Shown piece after piece: positions 1-16,100 of a stretch of 22,134 bases of DNA. Positions within the stretch are counted from its first letter, which is position 1, and every line of letters begins with the position of its first letter. The stretch covers positions 1-22,134 of the IMG/VR virus record IMGVR_UViG_3300010885_017335; one strand, given 5' to 3'. The notes below the pieces were generated by a model, which had not been told where the DNA came from, did not search any database, and worked only from the letters and a program-made list of their open reading frames with translations. This stretch comes from a virus. Position numbers and translations under genes: made by a program.

Positions 1-453
1 ACTACCATTGTCAAAGTCTAATGAGCCTTTGTTGTATGTAGTGACACCAGCTTTAATATGATTAGGGCAGTTCTCGTATGCATAACGAATACGTTGCATA
101 ATCTCCTGAGCCCCTGCATATTTATGCGCCGCAATAAGAATTGTACTGTCTGGTACAAACATAGCATACCAAAGTAGATATCCTGCCGCACTAGTTGACT
201 TACCCGTTTGTCGAGCCATTAAACTAATGCTGAAACGATAGTTATGGTAAGTATGTATTAGTTTTTCTTGGAAGTCCCATGGATGATACAACATGCTACC
301 GCGTGTTGGGTGTTGTATGTAAAAGAAGTTATCCATAAAGTATAGATAACCTGTGTTTGGATCACTACATTTGATAAAGTCATCTAATTCTTTATCCGAG
401 TTGAATGTAGTTTTTACATAAGGTGTTTTAACTAGTGAAGGTGTACCGCTCAT
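1..453 (-). CDS. terL: Terminase large subunit, N-terminal part (T4 gp17-like), cut by window edge
   Basis: Only the first 151 codons lie in the window; the gene continues past base 1. The product is the ATPase/nuclease motor that pumps DNA into the prohead. A Walker A motif, ARQTGKST, sits at residues 80-87. It is followed by the ILIAAHK strand (105-111) and by YNKGSLDFDNGS near residue 140. Motif and order match the T4 gp17 ATPase domain, where the P-loop is SRQLGKTT and the later segment is WNKGSIELDNGS. The ATG at 453 gives an N-terminus of plausible length before the P-loop. No Shine-Dalgarno precedes it, and a late-promoter-like box ends only 6 nt upstream, so the message may be nearly leaderless. 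The nuclease domain is outside the window. Confidence 0.93.
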   Translation of the reverse strand, partial: MSGTPSLVKTPYVKTTFNSDKELDDFIKCSDPNTGYLYFMDNFFYIQHPTRGSMLYHPWDFQEKLIHTYHNYRFSISLMARQTGKSTSAAGYLLWYAMFVPDSTILIAAHKYAGAQEIMQRIRYAYENCPNHIKAGVTTYNKGSLDFDNGS

Positions 454-459
454 AATTAC

Positions 460-467
460 TATTTAGT
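460..467 (-). promoter_or_regulatory. Weak T4-like late promoter box before terL
   Basis: On the minus strand this reads ACTAAATA, one mismatch from the NATAAATA box found before other late genes here. If the box occupies -13 to -6, as in T4 late promoters, +1 falls at about 454, one base before the terL ATG. Confidence 0.4.
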
Positions 468-485
468 AAACACAAGGGACTATGT

Positions 486-1640
486 TTATAATCCGTATCT
501 ACCGCGTAATGCGTTGAAGTTTTGTTGAATTTGAATTGCGTTTAATGCTTGTCCGTAGATAGCAACTGAGCCAATATCACCGCGCCAATAGTTATCTGAC
601 CTCGCTACTGCTTCTATTCCACTGTTTATAAATTGATAAAATGTTACGCCAGTATCTGGTGTGCCTATCTGTTGTCCGTTAATATAATAAGTCACTACTC
701 CACTAGTGGTTTGTGTTGCGGCTACGACTATCCACTGGTTATCTGTCACAGTGAAAGATGCGGATGCTGTGCTGGCCCACGGGCTACTAGGACCGGTGCT
801 GAAATGCATTGTCCAAGTGCTTCCGGACACATGATACATGTAGGTATTGAAATTACGATTATTACCGTTGCCACCAAACAAGTTACGATAAGTAGCATTA
901 CCGGTGTTGGCATTGACAGTTCTAATTGCAAACATTGTAGTCTTACCTGTGTAAGTGACATTCATTTTAGATGTGGTCACCGGAGCATACTGGTTAGTAC
1001 CATTAAAACTAAAATAACTTGCTGTACCGGCACTGGTAAAAGATGGACTGTTGGTCAAAGTGGCATCGTTTTGATATGTGCTAAGGTCCGTCCAAGTTGT
1101 CCCCGAGCCAGAATAACTACTAGTGTCGCCGGCATCAATGTATAATAGTTGACCTGATGTTACTATAGAGTATGATCCTGTCCAAGGATTACCTGAACTA
1201 TATGTAAATCCTGTTATAACGCCATTGTTGGCTGCACACACATAGTTCCATACTATATCATTGGCAGGACTAGTTCCCCCAATGAGTTGATTACCAGGCA
1301 TAGTTAATTGACCACTGCTGGCTGAATAGCCACCGGCACCATATGGGCAGGTAATATTACTAAAAACTCCGTTGGTTAGTGTAAAGCTGATTGTAGCTTG
1401 ACCATATGTAAAAGTCAAGCCTGTATATACCTGGGAGGTTATCCAAGGACGTCCCGCAACCAATCCATCAGTATTAGTATTATCTACTATATCATTGTCA
1501 GAATACTGTGTTGGTAATTGCGTAATATCATAATAGACTCTAGGATTAGATACTGCTAATCTATCGGATGACGCTAAATCTAGTTTAGCTTTTTGTCTTA
1601 ATTCTTTAGTTGATAATGTTGATATTCCGTTTAGTGACAT
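486..1640 (-). CDS. Virion protein with C-terminal LamG/concanavalin-like domain
   Basis: This 384-aa protein is a probable fibre or capsid decoration that binds glycans. The N-terminus has a helical, charged stretch (TKELRQKAKLDLASSDR, residues 11-27), then YYDITQLPTQYS and a GLVAGRPW motif near 59-66. I recall this arrangement as the head of many environmental phage structural proteins. From about residue 165 to the end it resembles the laminin-G/concanavalin A superfamily. Landmarks are LLYIDAGDTSSYSGSGTTW, DLSTYQNDATL, FNGTNQY, an YINGQQIG hairpin, and the closing ALNAIQIQQNFNALRGRYGL. The start has a good Shine-Dalgarno (AGGAAA) and lies one base after the stop of the upstream gene, so the two are co-transcribed. 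The family is fairly sure, the exact virion location is not. Confidence 0.72.
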   Translation of the reverse strand: MSLNGISTLSTKELRQKAKLDLASSDRLAVSNPRVYYDITQLPTQYSDNDIVDNTNTDGLVAGRPWITSQVYTGLTFTYGQATISFTLTNGVFSNITCPYGAGGYSASSGQLTMPGNQLIGGTSPANDIVWNYVCAANNGVITGFTYSSGNPWTGSYSIVTSGQLLYIDAGDTSSYSGSGTTWTDLSTYQNDATLTNSPSFTSAGTASYFSFNGTNQYAPVTTSKMNVTYTGKTTMFAIRTVNANTGNATYRNLFGGNGNNRNFNTYMYHVSGSTWTMHFSTGPSSPWASTASASFTVTDNQWIVVAATQTTSGVVTYYINGQQIGTPDTGVTFYQFINSGIEAVARSDNYWRGDIGSVAIYGQALNAIQIQQNFNALRGRYGL

Positions 1641-1641
1641 G

Positions 1642-1923
1642 TTATTTTCCTATAGGCTTTTCGCCAGTCAAATATGGTTTACTGAACCATAGTTGAAACC
1701 ACTCGGGAGTACCTGGTTTGATGTTATGTTCACGCATTAGTCGACCTTTTTCGTTTCCAGTAATACTTATATTGCTTTCTTCACCGATAATTTGCGGAGT
1801 AATTCCACTAAGTTTCTTTAAATCTTCTAATGTAGTATCGAGGTTTTCTTGACGTGAAGGGACAGATTTGAGTTTGTCAAATCCGTTCATTATTTTAGCT
1901 TGTTTCCATACATCAAAGGACAT
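1642..1923 (-). CDS. Conserved-looking small phage protein, function unknown (93 aa)
   Basis: I do not recognise a function. The protein is soluble and charged. A central stretch contains TLEDLKKLSGI, and the C-terminal part carries PGTPEWFQLWFSKPYLTGEKP. This Trp/Phe-rich tail has the look of a protein-protein contact. The gene ends one base before the LamG virion gene and probably forms a two-gene late unit with it. The ATG at 1923 has no Shine-Dalgarno, and a perfect GATAAATAC late box ends 4 nt upstream, so the transcript would begin at the start codon. If that promoter makes a normal leader, translation could instead begin at Met12, but no Shine-Dalgarno supports that either. Confidence 0.6.
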   Translation of the reverse strand: MSFDVWKQAKIMNGFDKLKSVPSRQENLDTTLEDLKKLSGITPQIIGEESNISITGNEKGRLMREHNIKPGTPEWFQLWFSKPYLTGEKPIGK

Positions 1924-1927
1924 GATG

Positions 1928-1935
1928 TATTTATC
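1928..1935 (-). promoter_or_regulatory. T4-like late promoter box GATAAATA, leaderless spacing
   Basis: The minus strand reads GATAAATAC ending 3-4 nt before the ATG at 1923. With T4 geometry +1 falls at about 1922-1923, on the start codon itself. The box is identical to those at 3060-3067 and in the 3837-3853 palindrome. Confidence 0.6.
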
Positions 1936-1938
1936 GGA

Positions 1939-2631
1939 TTATTTGATATCTAAAGGGCGAGTTTTAGTTGCTACTATGCAGTAGTATTTTTCTCTGGCTT
2001 CGATTTTATTGCCTTCTTCATCTTGCCCTACTGCTAAATCAAATTCTAGTGTATTGAACGCATTAATAGTAAATCCAGTACGGTCAATCAATGCGGCTAA
2101 CTGAGTAGAACCTAAAATGCTATAGTGATTCAAGTTAGTTTCATGCTTACGGTCACAATCTGGAGCAGGAACTTCAATATAAATCTTTCCACCTTGCTTT
2201 AGAATACGATTGTATTCCATTAATGAAAAGATTGGGTATGGACTATGTTCCAGTGCATGGCGCAAGAAGATAAAGTCTACACTTTCATCATAGTAACCGT
2301 CTTTTTGTGGTAAGAAGGTTAAATCATATGGTTTAACAACATGACCTTTGCTTTCACAAAGTTTAATATCGCCCGGACTTAATGTTACACCAACAAGATT
2401 AGTGTACCCGCGTTCTTTCATTGCATCTAAGAAGTAACCAGGACCGCAGCCTAAATCTAAGATATGTGCATCTTTCTTTAAATTTAATGGGTCAATGTAA
2501 GATTCAACTACTTGTTTAGTTAGTTGTAAATGAAAACCGCTTTCGCCCTCATCGTAGATATGGGCAGTGTATAACCACTCATTATAGAATTTTAGTTTAA
2601 TTAAGTCTAGTGTGTTGTTGATATCAATCAT
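1939..2631 (-). CDS. Class I SAM-dependent methyltransferase (Methyltransf_11/23 type)
   Basis: This 230-aa protein has a clear Rossmann-type SAM site: motif I ILDLGCGPGYFL at residues 57-68. The strand-4 region DFIFLRHALEHSPYPIFSLM at 119-138 follows, then LKQGGKIYIEVPAPD at 144-158, typical of small-molecule or sugar O-methyltransferases. Length fits the family. The substrate cannot be read from sequence. In phages such enzymes often modify surface glycans or nucleotides, and the nucleotide-sugar epimerase at 5992-6954 makes a sugar plausible (inference). The start ATG at 2631 has an AGGAAA Shine-Dalgarno. The stop lies 15 nt before the ATG of the 93-aa gene. Confidence 0.85.
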   Translation of the reverse strand: MIDINNTLDLIKLKFYNEWLYTAHIYDEGESGFHLQLTKQVVESYIDPLNLKKDAHILDLGCGPGYFLDAMKERGYTNLVGVTLSPGDIKLCESKGHVVKPYDLTFLPQKDGYYDESVDFIFLRHALEHSPYPIFSLMEYNRILKQGGKIYIEVPAPDCDRKHETNLNHYSILGSTQLAALIDRTGFTINAFNTLEFDLAVGQDEEGNKIEAREKYYCIVATKTRPLDIK

Positions 2632-2639
2632 AGTTTTCC

Positions 2640-2664
2640 TGAATAAGATAAAATTACTTATTCA
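2640..2664 (-). other. Inverted repeat (8-bp stem) in the methyltransferase leader
   Basis: TGAATAAG and CTTATTCA face each other across a 9-nt AT-only spacer, immediately upstream of the AGGAAA Shine-Dalgarno of the methyltransferase gene. The stem is AT-rich and has no U-tract, so it could be a weak leader hairpin or an operator. The minus strand also reads AATAAGTA at 2655-2662, one mismatch from the late box, with +1 about 18 nt before the ATG. The inverted repeat may therefore contain a weak late promoter. Confidence 0.35.
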
Positions 2665-2681
2665 AAAATAAAGTGATTGAA

Positions 2682-3053
2682 TTATTTTCCGAAACCTTTG
2701 AAGCCGCTGATTGGGCTTGATTTTTGAGTATCGTCTAGTTCTTTACTTTTCATGTCACCGTGATTTAAGTCTTTATACTCTGCACCAACAGCTTTATATG
2801 CTTGTTTTAGCATATCCTGTTCTTGTTGCGTATATGGGTGTGTGGTTTTTTGCTTACCTACCCAACTTTTTGCTGGCATGTGAAGTGGATCTTTTCCATT
2901 TGCGCCTGCTACTGCCATACCCAAACGATATGCAGTATAATCACTACTAACATGTTCACTATCACCGTATGTATTCAATCCCCTAGTAGACTGTGATTGT
3001 CTCTTAGAAACTTTCTTTTGGCTTGATTCAGCCATGAATTCATTCGCTCTCAT
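2682..3053 (-). CDS. Phage protein of unknown function beginning MRANEF (123 aa)
   Basis: No catalytic motif is visible. The protein is basic in its N-terminal third (SSQKKVSKRQSQSTRGLNTY). The middle holds SDYTAYRLGMAVAGANGK and KSWVGKQKTTHPYT, and a helical segment EQDMLKQAYKAVGAEYKDLN follows. From memory, proteins with this MRA-(N/S)-EF start and YTAYRLGMAVA core recur in environmental T4-like phage structural regions, but no role is assigned. The gene starts 2 nt before the stop end of the 253-aa virion gene. A perfect late box lies 6 nt upstream of the ATG with no Shine-Dalgarno, so it may be read from a near-leaderless message as well as by read-through. Confidence 0.6.
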   Translation of the reverse strand: MRANEFMAESSQKKVSKRQSQSTRGLNTYGDSEHVSSDYTAYRLGMAVAGANGKDPLHMPAKSWVGKQKTTHPYTQQEQDMLKQAYKAVGAEYKDLNHGDMKSKELDDTQKSSPISGFKGFGK

Positions 3054-3054
3054 A

Positions 3055-3816
3055 TCAAGTATTTATCTTAGCAACTACGTTATGAGTTATAGTGCTATTT
3101 GCAAAGGGTGAAACATTGAATTTTAGTTGTCCAAACGCAGTTGTTACACTATAGTGTGTTAGTACTGAACCAACAAATATAGTACCGGATATCACATATT
3201 TTACATCTGCATTATTGTTTTGTTTAGTAGCTTCTACTACTGCAAATTGACTGTTTTGTGTACTAGATTCAATTGATGTAATTTCAAATCTTACTGTTCT
3301 TACCTGAGACATTGGGATTTCATATAGTGTTTGGTCAATATCATTATTACTAGTGGTTGCCAAGAATGCACTGCTATCAACTAAAACAGTAGTACCAAGT
3401 CTTATTGTACTAGTAGCAGTAAGGTTAACTGCACGTAATGTGGCAGAAGAGGTAATAGTATCTGTACCACCGGTTAATGTTACACCATTGACTTTAATAC
3501 TATTCCCTACATATATATTTTGAATTGTATTTGATGAACTACCAATATTAACAGTGGTAATTGATGGTATTATATTAGTACCTATTGTGACATTACTACC
3601 GTCGAATGTTAAGGCACTAGTACCTGAGTAACTGTTAGAAGTTGCCCCGTCAATTTCTGAAATTGTTTTGAACTGAAAAGCTCCGATAGGACCTTCAGGG
3701 TCAACCAATGTCTGTAAATTAGCAAAATTATTGTTTATTTTGCCAAATGCAACTCGTAACGGATCACCCGTTCCGTCGTTGGGTAACTCACCTATAATAA
3801 TGTTTGCGTATGCCAT
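3055..3816 (-). CDS. Virion protein, tail-fibre/baseplate type with N-terminal NDGTGDPLR motif (253 aa)
   Basis: Residues 9-40 contain PNDGTGDPLRVAFGKINNNFANL, a motif widely shared among T4-like cyanophage and environmental phage tail-fibre and baseplate-associated proteins, where it heads a short virion-binding domain. The remaining residues are Thr/Ser/Asn/Ile-rich beta-forming sequence, with pieces such as TVNIGSSSNTIQNIYVGNSIKVNGVTL that echo the repeats of the large fibre at 13123. The C-terminal half (MSQVRTVRFEITSIESSTQNSQFAVVEATKQ) looks like a beta-sandwich rather than fibre repeats. The start ATG at 3816 has a short GGAA Shine-Dalgarno and a late promoter box giving a leader of about 16 nt. 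The exact structural position is inferred. Confidence 0.68.
   Translation of the reverse strand: MAYANIIIGELPNDGTGDPLRVAFGKINNNFANLQTLVDPEGPIGAFQFKTISEIDGATSNSYSGTSALTFDGSNVTIGTNIIPSITTVNIGSSSNTIQNIYVGNSIKVNGVTLTGGTDTITSSATLRAVNLTATSTIRLGTTVLVDSSAFLATTSNNDIDQTLYEIPMSQVRTVRFEITSIESSTQNSQFAVVEATKQNNNADVKYVISGTIFVGSVLTHYSVTTAFGQLKFNVSPFANSTITHNVVAKINT
3060..3067 (-). promoter_or_regulatory. T4-like late promoter box GATAAATA, leaderless spacing
   Basis: The minus strand reads GATAAATAC, followed by TTGAT and the ATG at 3053. T4 geometry puts +1 at about 3054, one base before the start codon. The box lies inside the last codons of the upstream 253-aa gene. Confidence 0.6.
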
Positions 3817-3836
3817 GTGATATGTTCCGTAATACT

Positions 3837-3853
3837 GTATTTATCATAAATAC
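3837..3853. promoter_or_regulatory. Palindromic two-way late promoter (GTATTTATCATAAATAC)
   Basis: Seventeen bases form a perfect inverted repeat centred on C3845. Each strand reads an NATAAATAC late box: CATAAATA at 3845-3852 on plus, GATAAATA at 3845-3838 on minus. The predicted +1 sites are near 3858 (plus, 18-nt leader, AAGGAA at 3865-3870) and 3832 (minus, 16-nt leader, GGAA). It sits between the two divergent start codons at 3816 and 3876. Confidence 0.72.
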
Positions 3854-3875
3854 TACATACTTCCAAGGAACACAA

Positions 3876-4415
3876 ATGGACTCGAAATACGTAAAAGCAT
3901 ACGTTTCTATGCTGAATAGATTAACAGAAGAAGAGGGCGTAAGTCGCTTTGCAAATACGGCTGATTTTTATGCCAATGGTAAAGAAGGTCCTGCAGGACA
4001 AAGAACTACTATTGATACTAGTACCGGAAAACAGACTACAACAAGTGGTATGGGATCCGATGTAACCAGTGTTCAAGGTACACCCATTTCACACACTACC
4101 CCAAGTTTAAATGGTTATTCAAAGAAAACATATACAGGTAGCGCACAGGGTAAGGGAATTGCTTCCGGTGGACAAAAACAAAGATACAACGATGGCAGTT
4201 TAGATGCAACTCAGTATCAAGACCCTGCAGGAAAACAAACATCTGCAAACATGTCATACGATATGGGGGTTGCTAAAGCAACAGTAAATCAACAAGGAGA
4301 TGAGAATGCTCCTGTACAGACAAGTATGCAGTATACACAAGGTGAACCCGACCAACCACAAACAATGGAAGAAGAACTAGATGCCATGCGTAGGATAATG
4401 AATCATAGAAGATAA
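3876..4415 (+). CDS. Gln/Gly/Thr-rich phage protein of unknown function (179 aa)
   Basis: I do not recognise the family. After a short helical head (MDSKYVKAYVSMLNRLTEEEG) the protein is low in hydrophobics and rich in Gln, Gly, Thr, Ser and Tyr, with stretches such as TGKQTTTSGMGSD and SAQGKGIASGGQKQRYNDGS. It ends in an acidic-then-basic helix (TMEEELDAMRRIMNHRR). This suggests an extended or disordered linker-like structural protein. The frame is open back to 3804, but the ATG at 3876 is chosen. It alone has a strong AAGGAA Shine-Dalgarno at 5-nt spacing, and the late promoter at 3845-3852 lies inside the longer frame. Its stop codon overlaps the late box of the downstream nuclease gene. 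Confidence 0.62.
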   Translation: MDSKYVKAYVSMLNRLTEEEGVSRFANTADFYANGKEGPAGQRTTIDTSTGKQTTTSGMGSDVTSVQGTPISHTTPSLNGYSKKTYTGSAQGKGIASGGQKQRYNDGSLDATQYQDPAGKQTSANMSYDMGVAKATVNQQGDENAPVQTSMQYTQGEPDQPQTMEEELDAMRRIMNHRR

Positions 4416-4418
4416 ATA
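4411..4418 (+). promoter_or_regulatory. T4-like late promoter box GATAAATA before the nuclease gene
   Basis: GATAAATA overlaps the TAA stop of the preceding gene (4413-4415). Predicted +1 is about 4424, giving a 17-nt leader with AGGAG at 4430-4434 before the ATG at 4441. Spacing matches the plus-strand late promoters at 3845 and 13094. Confidence 0.65.
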
Positions 4419-4440
4419 TACGTATATTTAGGAGACAAAT

Positions 4441-5256
4441 ATGCGTATATTTTTAGCACTGATGCTGGCTCTAGCATCTACAACCACTTTTTCTTGGGAT
4501 CAACGCCCTCCCCTACCCGTACAAGCATGTCAAGTTCATAGCCCTTATGGATTTGCACAAACTGCACGTACTGCACAACCAATCTGCCGCGAAGCATATC
4601 TTGTAGCATATGATGCTCCTGTTAAGATTCCAGTATATGTAGCATATACATTACTACCACAAAATGCAATAGGGTGTTTCCCACGTACTAATGCGTTTGT
4701 TGCTGACAAGAGTATAGCTGGCGGTGCAACACCGGATGACTATGCTGGTACAGGATACGATAAAGGACATGCTGTTCCTGATGGTGACTTGAGTTGGACT
4801 CAACAAGTAGAGTATGAGAGTTTCTTAATGACTAACATGTATCCACAACATGGTTCATTGAATCGTGGTATATGGAAACTATTAGAGACAAGTGTTAGAG
4901 GTTGGGCAGTCCAATTAAAACAACCCCTAACTGTTTATGTAGGTGCATTGTATGGTGCAGGTGATTTGACTATTGGTAGGGGAATTATCGTTCCGCATGC
5001 TTACTACAAGATTGTAATTAATCAAACTACAGGACAAGTTGCTGGATGGGTATTCCCTCATACTAAACCATATGTTAACTTGGGTAATGATTTGACTAAG
5101 TTCCGTGTATCGGTTGCTGATATACAGAAACAAGCGGGAGTAACTTATGCTTTCCCTAAAAACGCTACAGAATTGCAGCCGGGAAAAGAATGGCCAGTTG
5201 ACTATGGCGCATTAACTAACGCTAAACGTGCTAAATGCGGAAAGAATGCTGAGTAA
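4441..5256 (+). CDS. Secreted DNA/RNA non-specific endonuclease (NUC1/Serratia-type beta-beta-alpha-metal)
   Basis: The 271-aa product begins with a likely signal peptide (MRIFLALMLALASTTTFSW), so the mature enzyme would be exported. The NUC signature appears as GYDKGHAVPDGDLSW at residues 105-119, where the family usually has DRGH. His110 would be the general base. ESFLMTNMYPQHGSLNRGIWKLLE at 126-149 supplies the metal-binding Asn141 and the conserved Asn/Glu helix. Conserved Cys residues (30, 49, 79 and near the C-terminus) suit an oxidised periplasmic protein. The reaction would be Mg-dependent hydrolysis of DNA and RNA. A late promoter drives it. Its stop codon abuts the convergent o-spanin gene with no gap. 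A role in clearing host DNA at lysis is plausible but inferred. Confidence 0.86.
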   Translation: MRIFLALMLALASTTTFSWDQRPPLPVQACQVHSPYGFAQTARTAQPICREAYLVAYDAPVKIPVYVAYTLLPQNAIGCFPRTNAFVADKSIAGGATPDDYAGTGYDKGHAVPDGDLSWTQQVEYESFLMTNMYPQHGSLNRGIWKLLETSVRGWAVQLKQPLTVYVGALYGAGDLTIGRGIIVPHAYYKIVINQTTGQVAGWVFPHTKPYVNLGNDLTKFRVSVADIQKQAGVTYAFPKNATELQPGKEWPVDYGALTNAKRAKCGKNAE

Positions 5257-5544
5257 TTATTTGCCAGCTTTATCAAAAATATCTTTTTGAATTTTATACC
5301 ACTCTATCCATGAATCGTTTTTAACAGCGCATTCATAGTAAGTGGTATAATTTTTTATGATTGTCTTGGTTATGTCGCTTAACTTTGGTTCTTCTTCTAA
5401 TTTGTCTAATTGAGGACATTTTACTAAAAGTTGTTCCGGTGCTTCTGGAAACTTAACAGTTACTGGTACAATAGTACTACATCCTGTTGCTAAGAATGCA
5501 AGTATGATAAAAATTGCTAGTACAAATAATTTAAGTAAATTCAT
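5257..5544 (-). CDS. Probable o-spanin (Rz1-like outer-membrane lipoprotein)
   Basis: The 95-aa product has a lipoprotein signal: a hydrophobic run at residues 5-19 followed by the lipobox LATGC, so Cys22 would be lipidated. The mature protein starts with a Pro-rich stretch (VPVTVKFPEAPEQLLVKCPQL) resembling Rz1-type o-spanins. Its C-terminal half is helical and longer than classical Rz1. It overlaps the upstream two-TM coiled-coil gene by ATGA, the usual linkage of Rz/Rz1 pairs. The pair would fuse inner and outer membranes in the last step of lysis, which implies a Gram-negative host. Identification is from topology and neighbourhood, not strong sequence similarity. Confidence 0.68.
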   Translation of the reverse strand: MNLLKLFVLAIFIILAFLATGCSTIVPVTVKFPEAPEQLLVKCPQLDKLEEEPKLSDITKTIIKNYTTYYECAVKNDSWIEWYKIQKDIFDKAGK

Positions 5545-5987
5545 TTTGGTGCCTCCGCCGCATCATTCAATGCTTTAATAAAATCTTTAGGGATCTCACA
5601 TTGTCCACCGGGGGCAAATTTAGTGTCATACTTGACTATTTCACGGTCAATATATTTTACAATATTTTCTCCACGTGTCCGTACAATCTGAGTTTTTGTA
5701 ATTACTTTAGTAACTATCTTTGTATTCTCTTTGGCACTTTTAAGTTCAGCCTCAGCTAATTTAGCTTCAACTTCTTTGACTTTAAGCTGCCAGGCTGCAT
5801 AATCTGCTAATCCACCTTCTAAATATAAGGCAAAAGCAAGAACAATCAAACTAATGACACGTATTGGAAGAACATACATTTTGATTCCAGGAACCATTCC
5901 TAATACAAATCCGGCTACTGTTCCCAGTATACCACCGATTAACATTGCATGAAAGACCCAATCGGGCAAAAATGATATTATCCACAT
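5541..5987 (-). CDS. Probable i-spanin (Rz-like), two membrane segments plus periplasmic coiled coil
   Basis: Residues about 12-33 and 39-57 are hydrophobic membrane segments. From 67 to 120 the protein is a heptad-like charged helix (VKEVEAKLAEAELKSAKENTK). It ends with GGQCEIPKDFIKALNDAA, similar to the C-terminal ends of Rz-type proteins. Classical Rz has one N-terminal TM; two segments here are unusual. The downstream lipoprotein overlaps by 4 nt. The ATG at 5987 has no Shine-Dalgarno, and a late box (AATAAATA) ends 5 nt upstream, so late transcription would start on the ATG. The start also lies 4 nt after the epimerase stop, so early read-through is possible, with late-specific expression superimposed. 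Confidence 0.66.
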   Translation of the reverse strand: MWIISFLPDWVFHAMLIGGILGTVAGFVLGMVPGIKMYVLPIRVISLIVLAFALYLEGGLADYAAWQLKVKEVEAKLAEAELKSAKENTKIVTKVITKTQIVRTRGENIVKYIDREIVKYDTKFAPGGQCEIPKDFIKALNDAAEAPK

Positions 5988-5991
5988 ATAG

Positions 5992-6954
5992 TTATTTATT
6001 AAAATATGAGTCTGACTTTAACCAATCATAGTATATTTTGAAGCCCTCTGCTACATCAACTTTGGGGTCAAAGCCAAAGTCACGTCTGGCTGCATCAATA
6101 TTCAATGCACCCCTGCTTGGAAAGTCTAAATCTCTATCTCTTATGGTCAACATGCCGCCACCAGCAAGTTCTAGTGCCATACGTGCGGCTTCTAATAGTG
6201 TCACGCTGTGACTTTTTGTGATATTGTATGTCTTGTTTTCCGTATTATCAGATAGTGCGGCAGCAACAATACCATCTGCGGCGTCATCCACATATGTGAA
6301 GTCTAGTGTTTCTGTTTCACCGTTAACTTGGATAGTTTCTCCGCGCATTGCGGCAAGTAAAAATTTACTTATTACTCTATCTTCTACATCCAGAGGTCCA
6401 TAAACAGCACTAGGGCGAATGATAGTATGCACAATATTAGTTCTACGAGTATAATCTCTAACAAGCCATTCTCCTGCTAATTTCATAATGCCATATTGTC
6501 CTTGGGGATTACAGATGGCATCTTCTGTAACATCATCAGTAAAATCACCATATACCATTGAACTGCTGATATAGATAAACTTCCTTACTTCATATTTATT
6601 GCTAGCTTCTAATAAATTTATTAGTCCTTCACTCATAGTACGACTACCTAAAATTGGGTTTTCATTCACAACTTTTTGTCTAGGGAAACTTGCTAAATGA
6701 ATTACAATTTCAGGTTCTTCAATTTGAAATACACCATCAATATCATTGTTTGAAATATCGTATGTATAGATAGCACCTTTATATTCATCTATCTTTTTCA
6801 AACGATTATACATTAGATAGTCAATTTCTTCTTGCGGAATAAGTCCGTAATTTGTTTTTGTATCTATGATTGATACAATATGTCCTTGATCCTGTAGTCT
6901 CTTAACTACATTGTGACCAATCAATCCTAATCCACCTGTCACTAAAATATTCAT
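5992..6954 (-). CDS. NAD-dependent nucleotide-sugar epimerase/dehydratase (extended SDR, GalE/WbpP-like)
   Basis: The 320-aa length is normal for the family. The NAD-binding glycine motif GGLGLIG is at residues 7-13, with Asp31 ending beta-2. HLAS lies at 87-90, YISSSMVYG at 128-136 supplies the catalytic Ser, and YGIMK at 154-158 is the YxxxK pair. RPSAVYGPLD (180-189) and LDFTYVDDAADGIV (217-230) match the substrate-side motifs of UDP-sugar epimerases and dehydratases. The exact sugar cannot be told. It probably works in the host cytoplasm on a nucleotide sugar, perhaps for surface-glycan alteration during infection. It overlaps the upstream 72-aa membrane-protein gene by ATGA. Confidence 0.87.
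   Translation of the reverse strand: MNILVTGGLGLIGHNVVKRLQDQGHIVSIIDTKTNYGLIPQEEIDYLMYNRLKKIDEYKGAIYTYDISNNDIDGVFQIEEPEIVIHLASFPRQKVVNENPILGSRTMSEGLINLLEASNKYEVRKFIYISSSMVYGDFTDDVTEDAICNPQGQYGIMKLAGEWLVRDYTRRTNIVHTIIRPSAVYGPLDVEDRVISKFLLAAMRGETIQVNGETETLDFTYVDDAADGIVAAALSDNTENKTYNITKSHSVTLLEAARMALELAGGGMLTIRDRDLDFPSRGALNIDAARRDFGFDPKVDVAEGFKIYYDWLKSDSYFNK
5993..6000 (-). promoter_or_regulatory. T4-like late promoter box AATAAATA before the spanin pair, leaderless spacing
   Basis: The minus strand reads AATAAATA, spanning the last codons and the stop of the epimerase gene. With T4 geometry +1 falls at 5987, the A of the i-spanin ATG. It would give the lysis genes late timing inside an otherwise sigma70-driven gene chain. 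Confidence 0.55.
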
Positions 6955-7425: not shown

Positions 7426-8264
7426 ACTGCCATCTTTGCCCTAATCGCATCGTGGCTTTGATAGTTCTCTAAATGAATGTCCTGCATTGTCATTTCAAAG
7501 ATATTGTTCTTTTGTGAATTCAACATCAATATTGGTAATGGGTGTGGCTCACGATTTAATTGTTCTTTAACTTGGTCAACATGATCGGTATAGATATGCG
7601 TATCGCCAGTACTTATAATCAACTCACCTACTTTTAAATTACAATGATGTGCGATTAAATGTGTAAGCAACGCATAGCTAGCAATGTTAAAAGGTAAGCC
7701 AAGAAACACATCCACACTGCGCTGGTACATATGACAAGAGAGTTCTTTGTTTTTGTTGACATAAAATTGACTCATTACATGACACGGTGGCAAAGCCATT
7801 TGATCCATTTCACCTACATTCCAAGCACTAAGAATATGTCTACGACCATTAGGGTCTTTAACTAAACCCTCAAGTAAGTTCTTTAGTTGGTCAATTTCTT
7901 TTTCATCATTTCTCCAGTGCCGCCATTGTACTCCATATACTCTTCCCAAGTCACCTTCAAATTTTGCTTTATCTTTCCAGTAAGGTGCTAGTGCGTTTGG
8001 TGTCCAAATTGTTACGGTGCCTTCTCTGCTACCATGAGTAATCTCTGCTAAACGTCTTTCATCTTGCGAGCCTTCAATGAACCAAAGTAATTCACCTACA
8101 CACGCTTTCCAAGCCAACTTTTTAGTTGTGACGGCTGGAAAGCCCCTACGCAAATCAAAGCGAAGATTACGTCCAAACACACTAATAGTGCCAACACCAG
8201 TTCTATCATCTTTTGTTTCTCCGTTATCTAATATATCTTGTAAAAGTTGTAAATATGTTTTCAT
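7422..8264 (-). CDS. thyA: Thymidylate synthase
   Basis: This 280-aa enzyme methylates dUMP to dTMP using methylene-tetrahydrofolate, supplying thymidine for phage replication. The sequence follows ThyA from end to end. The dUMP phosphate Arg lies in DDRTGVG (Arg21). GELLWFIEGS is at 57-66 and WGxxxxxW-like pieces follow. The nucleophile Cys161 sits in ALPPCHV, and RSVDVFLGLPFNIASY at 182-197 carries Asp185 and Asn193. THIYTDH and the closing MAV terminus are also present. It is slightly longer than E. coli ThyA (264 aa), with extra residues in the 85-135 region. The start matches the family's MKxYLxLLxxxLxxG N-terminus. A sigma70 promoter ends 6 nt upstream and there is no Shine-Dalgarno, so the message is probably leaderless. 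Confidence 0.97.
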   Translation of the reverse strand: MKTYLQLLQDILDNGETKDDRTGVGTISVFGRNLRFDLRRGFPAVTTKKLAWKACVGELLWFIEGSQDERRLAEITHGSREGTVTIWTPNALAPYWKDKAKFEGDLGRVYGVQWRHWRNDEKEIDQLKNLLEGLVKDPNGRRHILSAWNVGEMDQMALPPCHVMSQFYVNKNKELSCHMYQRSVDVFLGLPFNIASYALLTHLIAHHCNLKVGELIISTGDTHIYTDHVDQVKEQLNREPHPLPILMLNSQKNNIFEMTMQDIHLENYQSHDAIRAKMAV

Positions 8265-8270
8265 GTTGCG

Positions 8271-8299
8271 ATTATATCAAATCATTAAACTTAATACAA
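8271..8299 (-). promoter_or_regulatory. Sigma70-type promoter for thyA, leaderless geometry
   Basis: The minus strand has -35 TTGTAT (8299-8294), a 17-bp spacer and a perfect -10 TATAAT (8276-8271), then CGCAAC and ATG. Standard spacing puts +1 at 8264, exactly the A of the thyA start codon. Confidence 0.72.
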
Positions 8300-13093: not shown

Positions 13094-13101
13094 AATAAAT
13101 A
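13094..13101 (+). promoter_or_regulatory. T4-like late promoter box AATAAATA before the large fibre gene
   Basis: AATAAATAC lies 21 nt before the ATG at 13123. Predicted +1 is about 13107, giving a 16-nt leader with AAGGAA at 13111-13116. It stands back to back with the sigma70 promoter of the HExxH gene. Confidence 0.65.
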
Positions 13102-13122: not shown

Positions 13123-16100
13123 ATGAGTTGGCCAGCCAATCCACTTAACGGACAGCAAGTAACAGTTAACGGTCTTTTATATTCTTGGAATAATAACAAT
13201 AAGACTTGGGACCGCATTGGATATGTCTCCTCAGCCGTTACTACTGATGAAACCGTTCTATCCAAACTAACTGTCACAGAACGTGCAACCCTAGGAGATA
13301 TAGCCAATGTGCATATTTCGGGTGGTACTGCCGGGCAAGTAATAAAAACAGACGGAACCGGTAACTTAAGTTGGCAGACAGAAGCAGTACTAAGTCCCGG
13401 TGGATCCAATACATTTGTTCAATTCAATGATGAAGGGACTGCCTTAGGTGGTGTTGCAAACTTTGCGTTTGATAAGACATCCAATACACTTAGTGTTGAT
13501 TATGCTAACCTAGTATTAACTAGTTATGCAAGCAGTCAACCTAATATCACAACAATCGGAGCCTTAAGTAACCTAGAGGTCACTGGTGACCTAACCGTTT
13601 ATGGTAACACTGACTTAGAAGGTAATTTACACATTGGCGGGACAGTTATTTCTGATGGTAGGGTTAGCGCAGGTGCGTATGCTGCACCAGCAGCCAATAA
13701 TCAAGTTTTACTAAACAAATCAGGTAACATCGACGGTACTGCTAATTTAACGTTTACTAATAGTAATACGCTTGCTGTCATCGGTAATGTTACTGTAACC
13801 AACAATATTACTGCAGGTACAGTTACAGGAACATTAACAACTGCCGCACAACCCAATATCACTACTGTTGGTACACTCACAAGTTTAGCAGTTACTGGTA
13901 ACATAGTTGCCGGTAATATCAAAGTTGCGTTTGCAAATGCTAACATATACAATGCACCCAATTCAACTGCTAATACACAAATATTAGTAAACAAAGCCGG
14001 TAACATCGGTAGTTACAGTAACTTGTTCTTTGATGGTAACTTATTAACTGTTACCGGAAATATTCAATCAAGAAATGCTAATTTAGGTAATGCGGTTATT
14101 GCCAATTACTTTACTGGTAATTTAACATCTGGTCCACAAACAGGTATCACAAGTGTTGGTACATTAGATAGTTTAGCAGTTACTGGAAATATTACAAGCG
14201 GAAATGCTAATTTAGGTAACTTAGCTACCGCTAATTATATTACAGGAACTTTAACAACAAACGCACAACCAAATATTACAAGTGTAGGTAATTTAACTAA
14301 TTTACGTGTTTCAGGTAACGCCAACATAGATGGTAATTTATATATAGGCGGAACAACTATTGGTGCTGGTGGAATTACTGCTCCAACGTTCACTGGTAAC
14401 GTTAATGGTAACATTAACGGTATACTTACTGCTCCTGGTTCAGACAAACAAATTCTATTTAATAAAACAGGTAACGTAGGTGCAAGTGCTAACATAACAT
14501 TTACTGAAGGTAGCGGTGCAATTAGACCTGCTAACTTAAATGTTATTGGAACTATCAGGGCAACTTCAATAACTGCAACTAACACATTATCAGCACCAAA
14601 CTTAGCAGGTACATTAACTTCTAGCGCAGGATATCAACCTAATATTGTTCAAGTAGGTACACTTAATTCATTGACAGTAGACGGTGGTGATACAATTTTT
14701 AGAAATACAATCATTGATACTACATCAAATGTAAAAATTAGAGGACCGTTGATTCCAACAGGGAATATGGTGGAAGATATTGGTACACCAACGCTTCATT
14801 GGCGTGATTTATATCTTGCTGGTAAAACTATTAAATTAGGTACTTCAACTATTACTGCTACTAGTCAAGGTGGTATTTTAGTTAGTGGTGCTGTAACAGC
14901 TACAGGTGGTGTTTCTAGTGACACTACTGCTACAGGTTTTACATTTGTAACATTGACTGCAACTAGCACCGGCGGTGTATCTACACTAACTTTTGAAGAC
15001 CAAACAGTTCCACCGTTTGTTGTTGGCGGACTTATTACTGTTAAAGGTGTAACTCCAACAGGATACAACGGAACATTTACTGTTACTGTGGGCACTGTTA
15101 GAAGTGTTTCATATTTAAAAACAGTAGTAGGTTCACAATCAGTAGCAGGCACAGTTGAATCCGGTGGAAATCCCCCGTTCACTGTTACTAGCCAGTTGAT
15201 GGTTGCAAATTTAAATGTTGAATTCTTACAAGGGTATACACCTACAACAATTGATGTTGCTAATACAATTGTATTGCGTGATTCACGTAGCAGTTTTAGT
15301 GCAAATGTAATTACTGCTAATTCTATCGTTGGTACTAATCCATTAAATCCAACAGTAGACATAGCCAATACAGTATTAGCAAGTTCTCAACCCAATATTA
15401 CAAGTGTAGGTACACTTACTAATTTAAATGTTACTAATCTTATTGTAGCCGCTAATATTGATATCAATGATTACGTTGATGCAGGATGGGTAAGAGCGAA
15501 CATACGTGATTCAGATGGTTATCTTGGTTCTAAGCTTGTTGGAGAAGTAGCTTATGCTGCCGTAGCCAACAATGTATCAGGATCAAACGTAGTTGGTCAA
15601 GTGTCCAATGCGTTAGTTGCTGGAACTGTTTATACTCATGCACAACCTGCAATTACTAGCGTAGGTGCTTTAACAAGTTTACATGTTGCTGGTGATGCTA
15701 ATGTTGACGGTAATTTATATGTAGGTGGCACTACAGTCAGTGCTGGTGGGTTATCTGCTTCTACAATTTCTGGTACGATTTCCGGAACATTTATATCACC
15801 CGGATCAAATTCAGAAATATTAATAAACAAACAAGGTGTGATTGGTACTGATAGTGACTTCAAGTACAACCAACTAACCAAATCACTAGCCATTGTAGGT
15901 AAGTTTACCTCACAAGATGCTAACTTGGGTAACGCAGTAGAATCTAATTATTTCTTAGGAAATGGTAACTTCTTAACAAATATTCAAGGATTAAATGTTA
16001 CCGGTACAGTGGCTCTTGCAACAAAAGCAGGAACAGTTACTACAGCCGCACAACCAAATATCACTAGTACAGGCACATTAACAACACTACATGTATCAGG

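Follow-up and report, generated by a model that had tools for sequence, protein, structure and literature searches.

Two spacing classes of late boxes

How is a gene translated when a bacteriophage T4-type late promoter ends only a few nucleotides (nt) before its start codon? The question is raised by the complete IMG/VR virus record IMGVR_UViG_3300010885_017335 (22,134 bases, itself a fragment; hereafter the window), in which eight octamers resembling the T4 late box stand before genes. A first-pass annotation had sorted these boxes into two classes, four lying 21–23 nt from the ATG with a Shine-Dalgarno sequence (SD) and four lying 4–6 nt from it without one, and had read the second class as promoters of leaderless messenger RNAs (mRNAs). 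All coordinates, spacings (counted from the end of the box to the ATG), and SD states were reproduced from the sequence. On the evidence set out below, we consider it very probable that the short-spaced boxes are true T4-type late promoters making leaderless mRNAs, a proposal supported by an SD-less 4–6 nt peak that is conserved across relatives of the window. The boxes are as follows.

460..467, minus strand: short-spaced late box ACTAAATA, 6 nt before the terL ATG, without SD
1928..1935, minus strand: short-spaced late box GATAAATA, 4 nt before the ATG of a 93-amino-acid (aa) gene, without SD
3060..3067, minus strand: short-spaced late box GATAAATA, 6 nt before the ATG of a 123-aa gene
5993..6000, minus strand: short-spaced late box AATAAATA, 5 nt before the i-spanin ATG
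3838..3845, minus strand: long-spaced late box GATAAATA, 21 nt before a 253-aa gene, SD GGAA
3845..3852, plus strand: long-spaced late box CATAAATA, 23 nt before the ATG of a 179-aa gene at 3876, SD AAGGAA
4411..4418, plus strand: long-spaced late box GATAAATA, 22 nt before the ATG of a 271-aa nuclease gene at 4441, SD AGGAG
13094..13101, plus strand: long-spaced late box AATAAATA, 21 nt before the ATG of a 2161-aa fibre gene at 13123, SD AAGGAA

The genes behind the four short-spaced boxes are listed here.

1..453, minus strand: 5' part of terL (terminase large subunit), truncated by the contig end, ATG at 453 (PHROG terminase large subunit, E 6e-34)
1642..1923, minus strand: 93-aa gene, function unknown, leaderless start predicted
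2682..3053, minus strand: 123-aa gene, function unknown, MRANEF family, leaderless start predicted
5541..5987, minus strand: i-spanin-like gene, 148 aa, leaderless start predicted (PHROG Rz-like spanin, E 5e-5)

Box-like octamers are not over-represented across the window, where 74 one-mismatch matches to TATAAATA compare with 69 ± 8 in shuffled sequence. What is non-random about the boxes is their position, not their abundance: TAAATA lies 4–6 nt before an ATG opening an open reading frame (ORF) of at least 60 aa four times, against 0.2 expected from permuted hexamers (P = 7e-5), and nowhere in the window does it lie 8–14 nt before an ORF-opening ATG. Of the eight boxes, that of terL matches least well, with two mismatches to TATAAATA. 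Two short-spaced boxes run into the preceding gene, the one at 3060..3067 covering the final codons of the 253-aa gene and the one at 5993..6000 overlapping the stop codon of a 320-aa epimerase gene. The divergent boxes within 3838–3852, which face the 253-aa gene (minus strand) and the 179-aa gene (plus strand), stand back to back with one base pair in common.

Judged by its gene content, the window belongs with the large T4-related phages: it carries terL, a spanin pair, a NUC1-type nuclease, an epimerase, thyA, a giant fibre gene, and a MoxR-type ATPase with a VWA partner. Its nearest sequenced isolates are those of the PA5oct group (amino-acid identity 53% for terL and 50% for the ATPase). 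A tblastn search of isolates with the i-spanin returned no match, and PHROG and Pfam searches assigned the 93-aa gene to no family.

Conservation of the short spacing in relatives

The first-pass annotation had named a count of box-to-ATG distances in related genomes as a check, with a sharp SD-less peak at 4–6 nt as the supporting outcome, and a conserved peak of this kind is what the count returned. In four long relative contigs (G001–G004; 524, 259, 191, and 116 kb), the distance from TAAATA to ATG was bimodal, with a sharp peak at 4–5 nt, a broad one at about 16–28 nt, and a trough between them. The short peak appeared in every contig singly (60 observed versus 14 expected, 20 versus 4, 17 versus 4, and 9 versus 2.6, respectively), and the pooled counts at 4, 5, and 6 nt were 34, 58, and 13, compared with 7.6, 6.7, and 8.3 expected (92 versus 14 at 4–5 nt); the control contains motif forms shifted by one base and is therefore conservative. 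Only ATG was enriched, as GTG, TTG, CTG, and ATA showed no such excess at 4–6 nt in the pooled contigs. An SD was found at 2 of 105 short-class starts versus 87 of 173 long-class starts, with chance hits making up about 20% and 45% of the two classes. Each class comprised 110 called genes in six contigs, chance hits included in both. A chance origin of the short peak is rejected by the permuted-hexamer controls and by an unbiased scan of all hexamers, in which TAAATA at 5 nt was the best non-SD signal at 3–8 nt in G001, G002, and G003 and ranked first of all in G002 and in the Pelagibacter phage HTVC008M. The earlier remark that no intermediate spacing occurs holds for the window, and 9–15 nt is a true trough in the relatives, but a minor group at 8 nt exists among the i-spanin homologues (14 of 35).

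Upstream regions of terL were collected in two scans, the first with the window's terL as query (80 loci, 79–98% identity) and the second from the PA5oct side (80 further loci, lower identity), which together gave 137 distinct regions. In nearly all first-scan loci the upstream sequence has diverged, and what remains alike is a [ACGT]TAAATA box at a distance of a few nt from the ATG. Over both scans, TAARTA lies 4–8 nt before the terL ATG in 115 of the 137 regions, and at exactly 5 nt in 78; a strong SD is present in 1 of these 115 versus 4 of the remaining 22. All nine contigs examined, the window included, are short-spaced at terL. Among the box-less terL relatives, L080, L307, L309, and L342 have an SD or an upstream-gene overlap, and L328, L344, and L077 overlap the upstream gene. 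On a quick tree with weak deep support, the short state extends throughout the uncultured clade surrounding PA5oct and has changed at least 15 times. In 21 of the 115 short-box regions the box is preceded by a perfect intrinsic terminator, with a few nt between the end of its T-run and the box (as in AAAAGCCCGCTCCGGCGGGCTTTTTTTTGGATAAATACAAGT-ATG); a leader for terL can therefore hardly come from an upstream transcript.

In one terL subclade (L292, L314, L320, L336, L348, and others), ATAAGTA replaces ATAAATA with the 5-nt spacing unchanged. The other short-spaced boxes of these genomes are still ATAAATA, the G variant being found only at terL among short-spaced starts, and it is possibly a tuned-down promoter. 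An altered sigma specificity in this subclade was rejected because boxes genome-wide there remain ATAAATA.

Conservation across relatives proved to be gene-specific. It is strong at terL and at the i-spanin, where 33 of 35 distinct homologues have a box 4–8 nt from the ATG, partial at the 93-aa gene (9 of 23 homologues), and near absent at the 123-aa gene (2 of 61, L002 and L056). Genes that lose the short box tend toward an SD or an overlap with the upstream gene, as do the two i-spanin homologues without it (L061 and G011). Switches between the classes also occur: the homologue of PA5oct structural gene 5756 is short-spaced without an SD in G001 and G002, and long-spaced with an SD in G011, G012, G014, and PA5oct.

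Proposed leaderless initiation and its alternatives

A gp55-family late sigma is encoded in every first-set relative contig longer than 100 kb (G001–G005), in three of four contigs of the second set, and in PA5oct, with profile matches in the relatives to phrog_234 (E about 1e-21) and phrog_12791 (E about 1e-73). The ATAAATA core box that characterises T4-type late promoters is present, and it is enriched at fixed positions. The T4 late box spans −13 to −6 and the sigma70 −10 element −12 to −7; with these geometries, offsets of 5 and 6 nt, respectively, each place the A of the AUG at +1. The T4 late box lies about one helical turn before +1 (PMC2988020), and the ATG peak at 5 nt agrees with a T4-type transcription start about 6 nt past the box.

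In the mechanism we propose, a gp55-type phage late sigma on host RNA polymerase would recognise [GCA]ATAAATA and begin transcription some 6 nt beyond it, so that +1 falls on the A of the start codon or within one base of it. The resulting 5'-AUG mRNA would be entered through the AUG itself, probably by whole 70S ribosomes; for the short class, we infer both this 5' end and this route of initiation. The second class in the same phages, with its box about 16–28 nt upstream and an SD in between, would serve the most abundant virion proteins, and some sigma70-type early promoters would be built leaderless in the same manner as the short class. The window contains one candidate of the latter kind:

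8265..8299, minus strand: thyA sigma70-type promoter, TTGTAT-17 nt-TATAAT, with TATAAT 6 nt before the ATG at 8264

This promoter looks like an early-type leaderless counterpart of the short-spaced late boxes, and some early-type genes of the relatives also appear to be leaderless. There, the distance from TATAAT to ATG peaks at exactly 6 nt (33 versus 5.6 expected), compared with 8 cases at 5 nt and 4 at 7 nt. A −35 element stands at 16–18 nt in 18 of 32 of the 6-nt TATAAT boxes versus 11% of all TATAAT (P 3e-10), and none of the 33 starts has an SD.

We favor leaderless mRNAs because the short-class starts are AUG only, terminators lie upstream of some boxes, several box-less genes have an SD, and the sigma70 class stands one nt further from the ATG. 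The ATG-only enrichment is the rule already known for leaderless mRNAs in E. coli and Caulobacter, which depend on AUG (PMC9031893). The first-pass annotation had also invoked a special host or phage factor for 70S initiation, and this part of it found no support. Ordinary bacterial ribosomes translate 5'-AUG leaderless mRNAs and would suffice (PMC9031893), and bS21, the single candidate looked for as a dedicated ribosomal factor, was rejected as a general explanation, being present in one of nine long relative contigs (G001, two copies) and in HTVC008M.

Several points weigh against this reading. The +1 position is borrowed from the geometries of T4 late and sigma70 promoters, the polymerase start would have to shift by one base at spacings of 4 and 6 nt, and the 14 i-spanin homologues at 8 nt would carry a leader of about 3 nt. 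The short box of the 123-aa gene recurs in just the two homologues given above. ORF calling was crude, and repeated gene pairs in G001 make the hits in that contig non-independent.

It seems quite unlikely that the late promoters are real but that translation proceeds by coupling or re-initiation on longer polycistronic transcripts, with the box incidental or serving the next gene. Such an arrangement would suit the three of four short-box genes of the window that lie within a minus-strand gene train, the 123-aa and i-spanin boxes that overlap the end of the preceding gene, and the box-less terL relatives (L328, L344, and L077) that overlap theirs. Against it stand the intrinsic terminators directly upstream of 21 of the 115 short-box terL genes and other short-box starts that come after the 3' ends of transfer RNAs; nor would coupling predict a 4–5 nt peak, a fixed box sequence, or an AUG-only rule.

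Misassigned starts, with the true ones downstream behind leaders and SDs at normal spacing, are highly improbable: third-codon-position variability starts at codon 2 of the predicted ORFs, terL included, which indicates that coding constraint begins at the short-box ATGs; ATG alone is enriched; and the annotated GenBank starts in HTVC008M and in another pelagiphage, Mosig, coincide with these ATGs. Hardly credible is an A/U-rich translation enhancer (an S1-type or non-SD signal for initiation) whose likeness to a late box is accidental. A/U-rich sequence is often present upstream of SD-less genes when the genome is AT-rich, but the same octamer stands 16–28 nt before SD-bearing genes, where a translation signal is impossible. 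The motif is also position-exact, it is absent from that position in T4 and PA5oct although these are equally AT-rich, and the sigma70 −10 box, together with its −35, behaves alike at one nt further.

Comparison with known systems and use of the two classes

Leaderless late mRNAs had been described as no normal feature of T4, and T4 indeed has no 4–6 nt class (3 observed versus 4.4 expected); PA5oct likewise lacks the peak. The short class was not seen in T4, PA5oct, the cyanophages S-SM2 and P-SSM2, Phosso, phiM12, XaC1, Vibrio 2.275, and Atu_ph07, some of them only partly sequenced, and a general T4-like trait is thereby rejected. Inheritance from a PA5oct-like state is rejected as well, since the late genes in the stretch of PA5oct that was read are all leadered and no peak is present. 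The system of the window and its relatives resembles the gp55/gp33/gp45 system of T4 (PMC2988020) in its 8-bp TATA-like box, the lack of a −35, the gp55-family gene in relatives, and the long-spaced class with SD; unlike T4, it has the 4–6 nt class, which comprises about as many called genes as the long one.

The same spacing recurs in the two pelagiphages. In HTVC008M, 12 ATGs lie at exactly 5 nt from TAAATA, among them the annotated starts of gp092 and gp093 (tail completion), with gp092 directly behind a terminator; its short-class start codons are 13 ATG, 0 GTG, and 1 TTG. Mosig keeps the terminator, the box, and the 5-nt spacing before its tail-completion homologue and has 6 starts at exactly 5 nt, with a 4–6 nt total not above control. 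Both share with the freshwater lineage the 5-nt TAAATA, a terminator upstream in places, and gp55, but they form a separate T4-like branch (grouping with cyanophages by taxonomy and terL) and their own terL is not leaderless. Late-promoter prediction is reported to have been unsuccessful in pelagimyophages (PMC7029224), which fits an unexpected placement of the box.

A survey of bacterial leaderless genes with a TA-like signal about 10–12 nt before the start detected leaderless genes in only 9 of the 71 beta- and 15 of the 239 gamma-proteobacterial genomes (PMC3160421). The inference here is of the same kind, from a −10-type signal too near the start to leave a leader, but it concerns a phage lineage with a phage-type late promoter and an SD class in parallel. 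The lambda cI mRNA from PRM likewise begins with 5'-AUG and has no SD; it serves one repressor gene, whereas here dozens of genes per genome, packaging and lysis included, are involved, with spacing conserved lineage-wide. Searches of the open-access literature turned up no description of T4-like phages with leaderless late mRNAs.

What is new is that known promoter types and the known leaderless mode together form a systematic class in one lineage of phages, and do so a second time in pelagiphages. Leaderless mRNAs in phages and proteobacteria are usually regarded as curiosities, whereas here two unrelated promoter types are tuned to AUG = +1 at many genes of an abundant environmental phage lineage. 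These uncultured, mostly giant T4-related phages, which make up a large group, should possess a second mode of starting protein synthesis that T4 does not show. The finding offers a reason why late-promoter searches that expect a leader fail, and a rule by which starts and promoters in these genomes could be called better. It is also relevant to the way viruses adjust protein amounts by means other than SD strength. The leaderless/leadered switches among orthologous genes form a natural library, and HTVC008M is a cultured test system.

The SD-led genes include those for the major capsid (gp23), the tail sheath (gp18), most tail-tube homologues, and another conserved structural gene. A dosage logic is plausible from this distribution, with terL leaderless and capsid, sheath, and tube SD-led. 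Tentatively, and with rather less than even confidence, we suggest that two standing translation classes operate in each infection, in the freshwater T4-related lineage and independently in the pelagiphages. Virion proteins made in bulk would come from SD-led mRNAs, and proteins that are enzymatic or needed in few copies from leaderless mRNAs transcribed by way of both sigma70 and gp55 promoters, with the late ribosome state perhaps shifting the balance.

Some further observations concern individual genes and contigs. Many genes of G001 (IMGVR_UViG_3300027749_002876, 524 kb) occur twice on opposite strands (e.g., MRLKFLSFSNLT and MNSKIVRKRRTDRN), and bS21 is also present twice, which points either to chimeric assembly or to inverted duplication within a very large genome. 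Homologues of the MRANEF (123-aa) gene in L003 and L014-L076 often follow a gene ending ...FKGYK(RK), whose KGYK codons (AAAGGATATAAA) double as the SD of the next gene. Before the 93-aa homologues of L075, L069, L060, L026, and L072, a hairpin and T-run (GATAAATACTCACTACATGTGAGTATTTTTTT) come immediately after the late box and ahead of the ATG, which looks as though the first part of the transcript were overlapped by a terminator or attenuator. The 93-aa homologue ends immediately upstream of terL in several relatives; the 384-aa gene that separates the two in the window (486–1640, minus strand, without a Pfam match) therefore looks like an insertion, and the position of the 93-aa gene suggests that it is a small-terminase candidate. 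Finally, a short-spaced late box precedes a metallophosphoesterase gene (..KxYxSIFxSDxHLG / MTKKYRTITVSD) in Mosig EXVC030M, G001, and G003, and this arrangement is thus common to a pelagiphage and the freshwater lineage.

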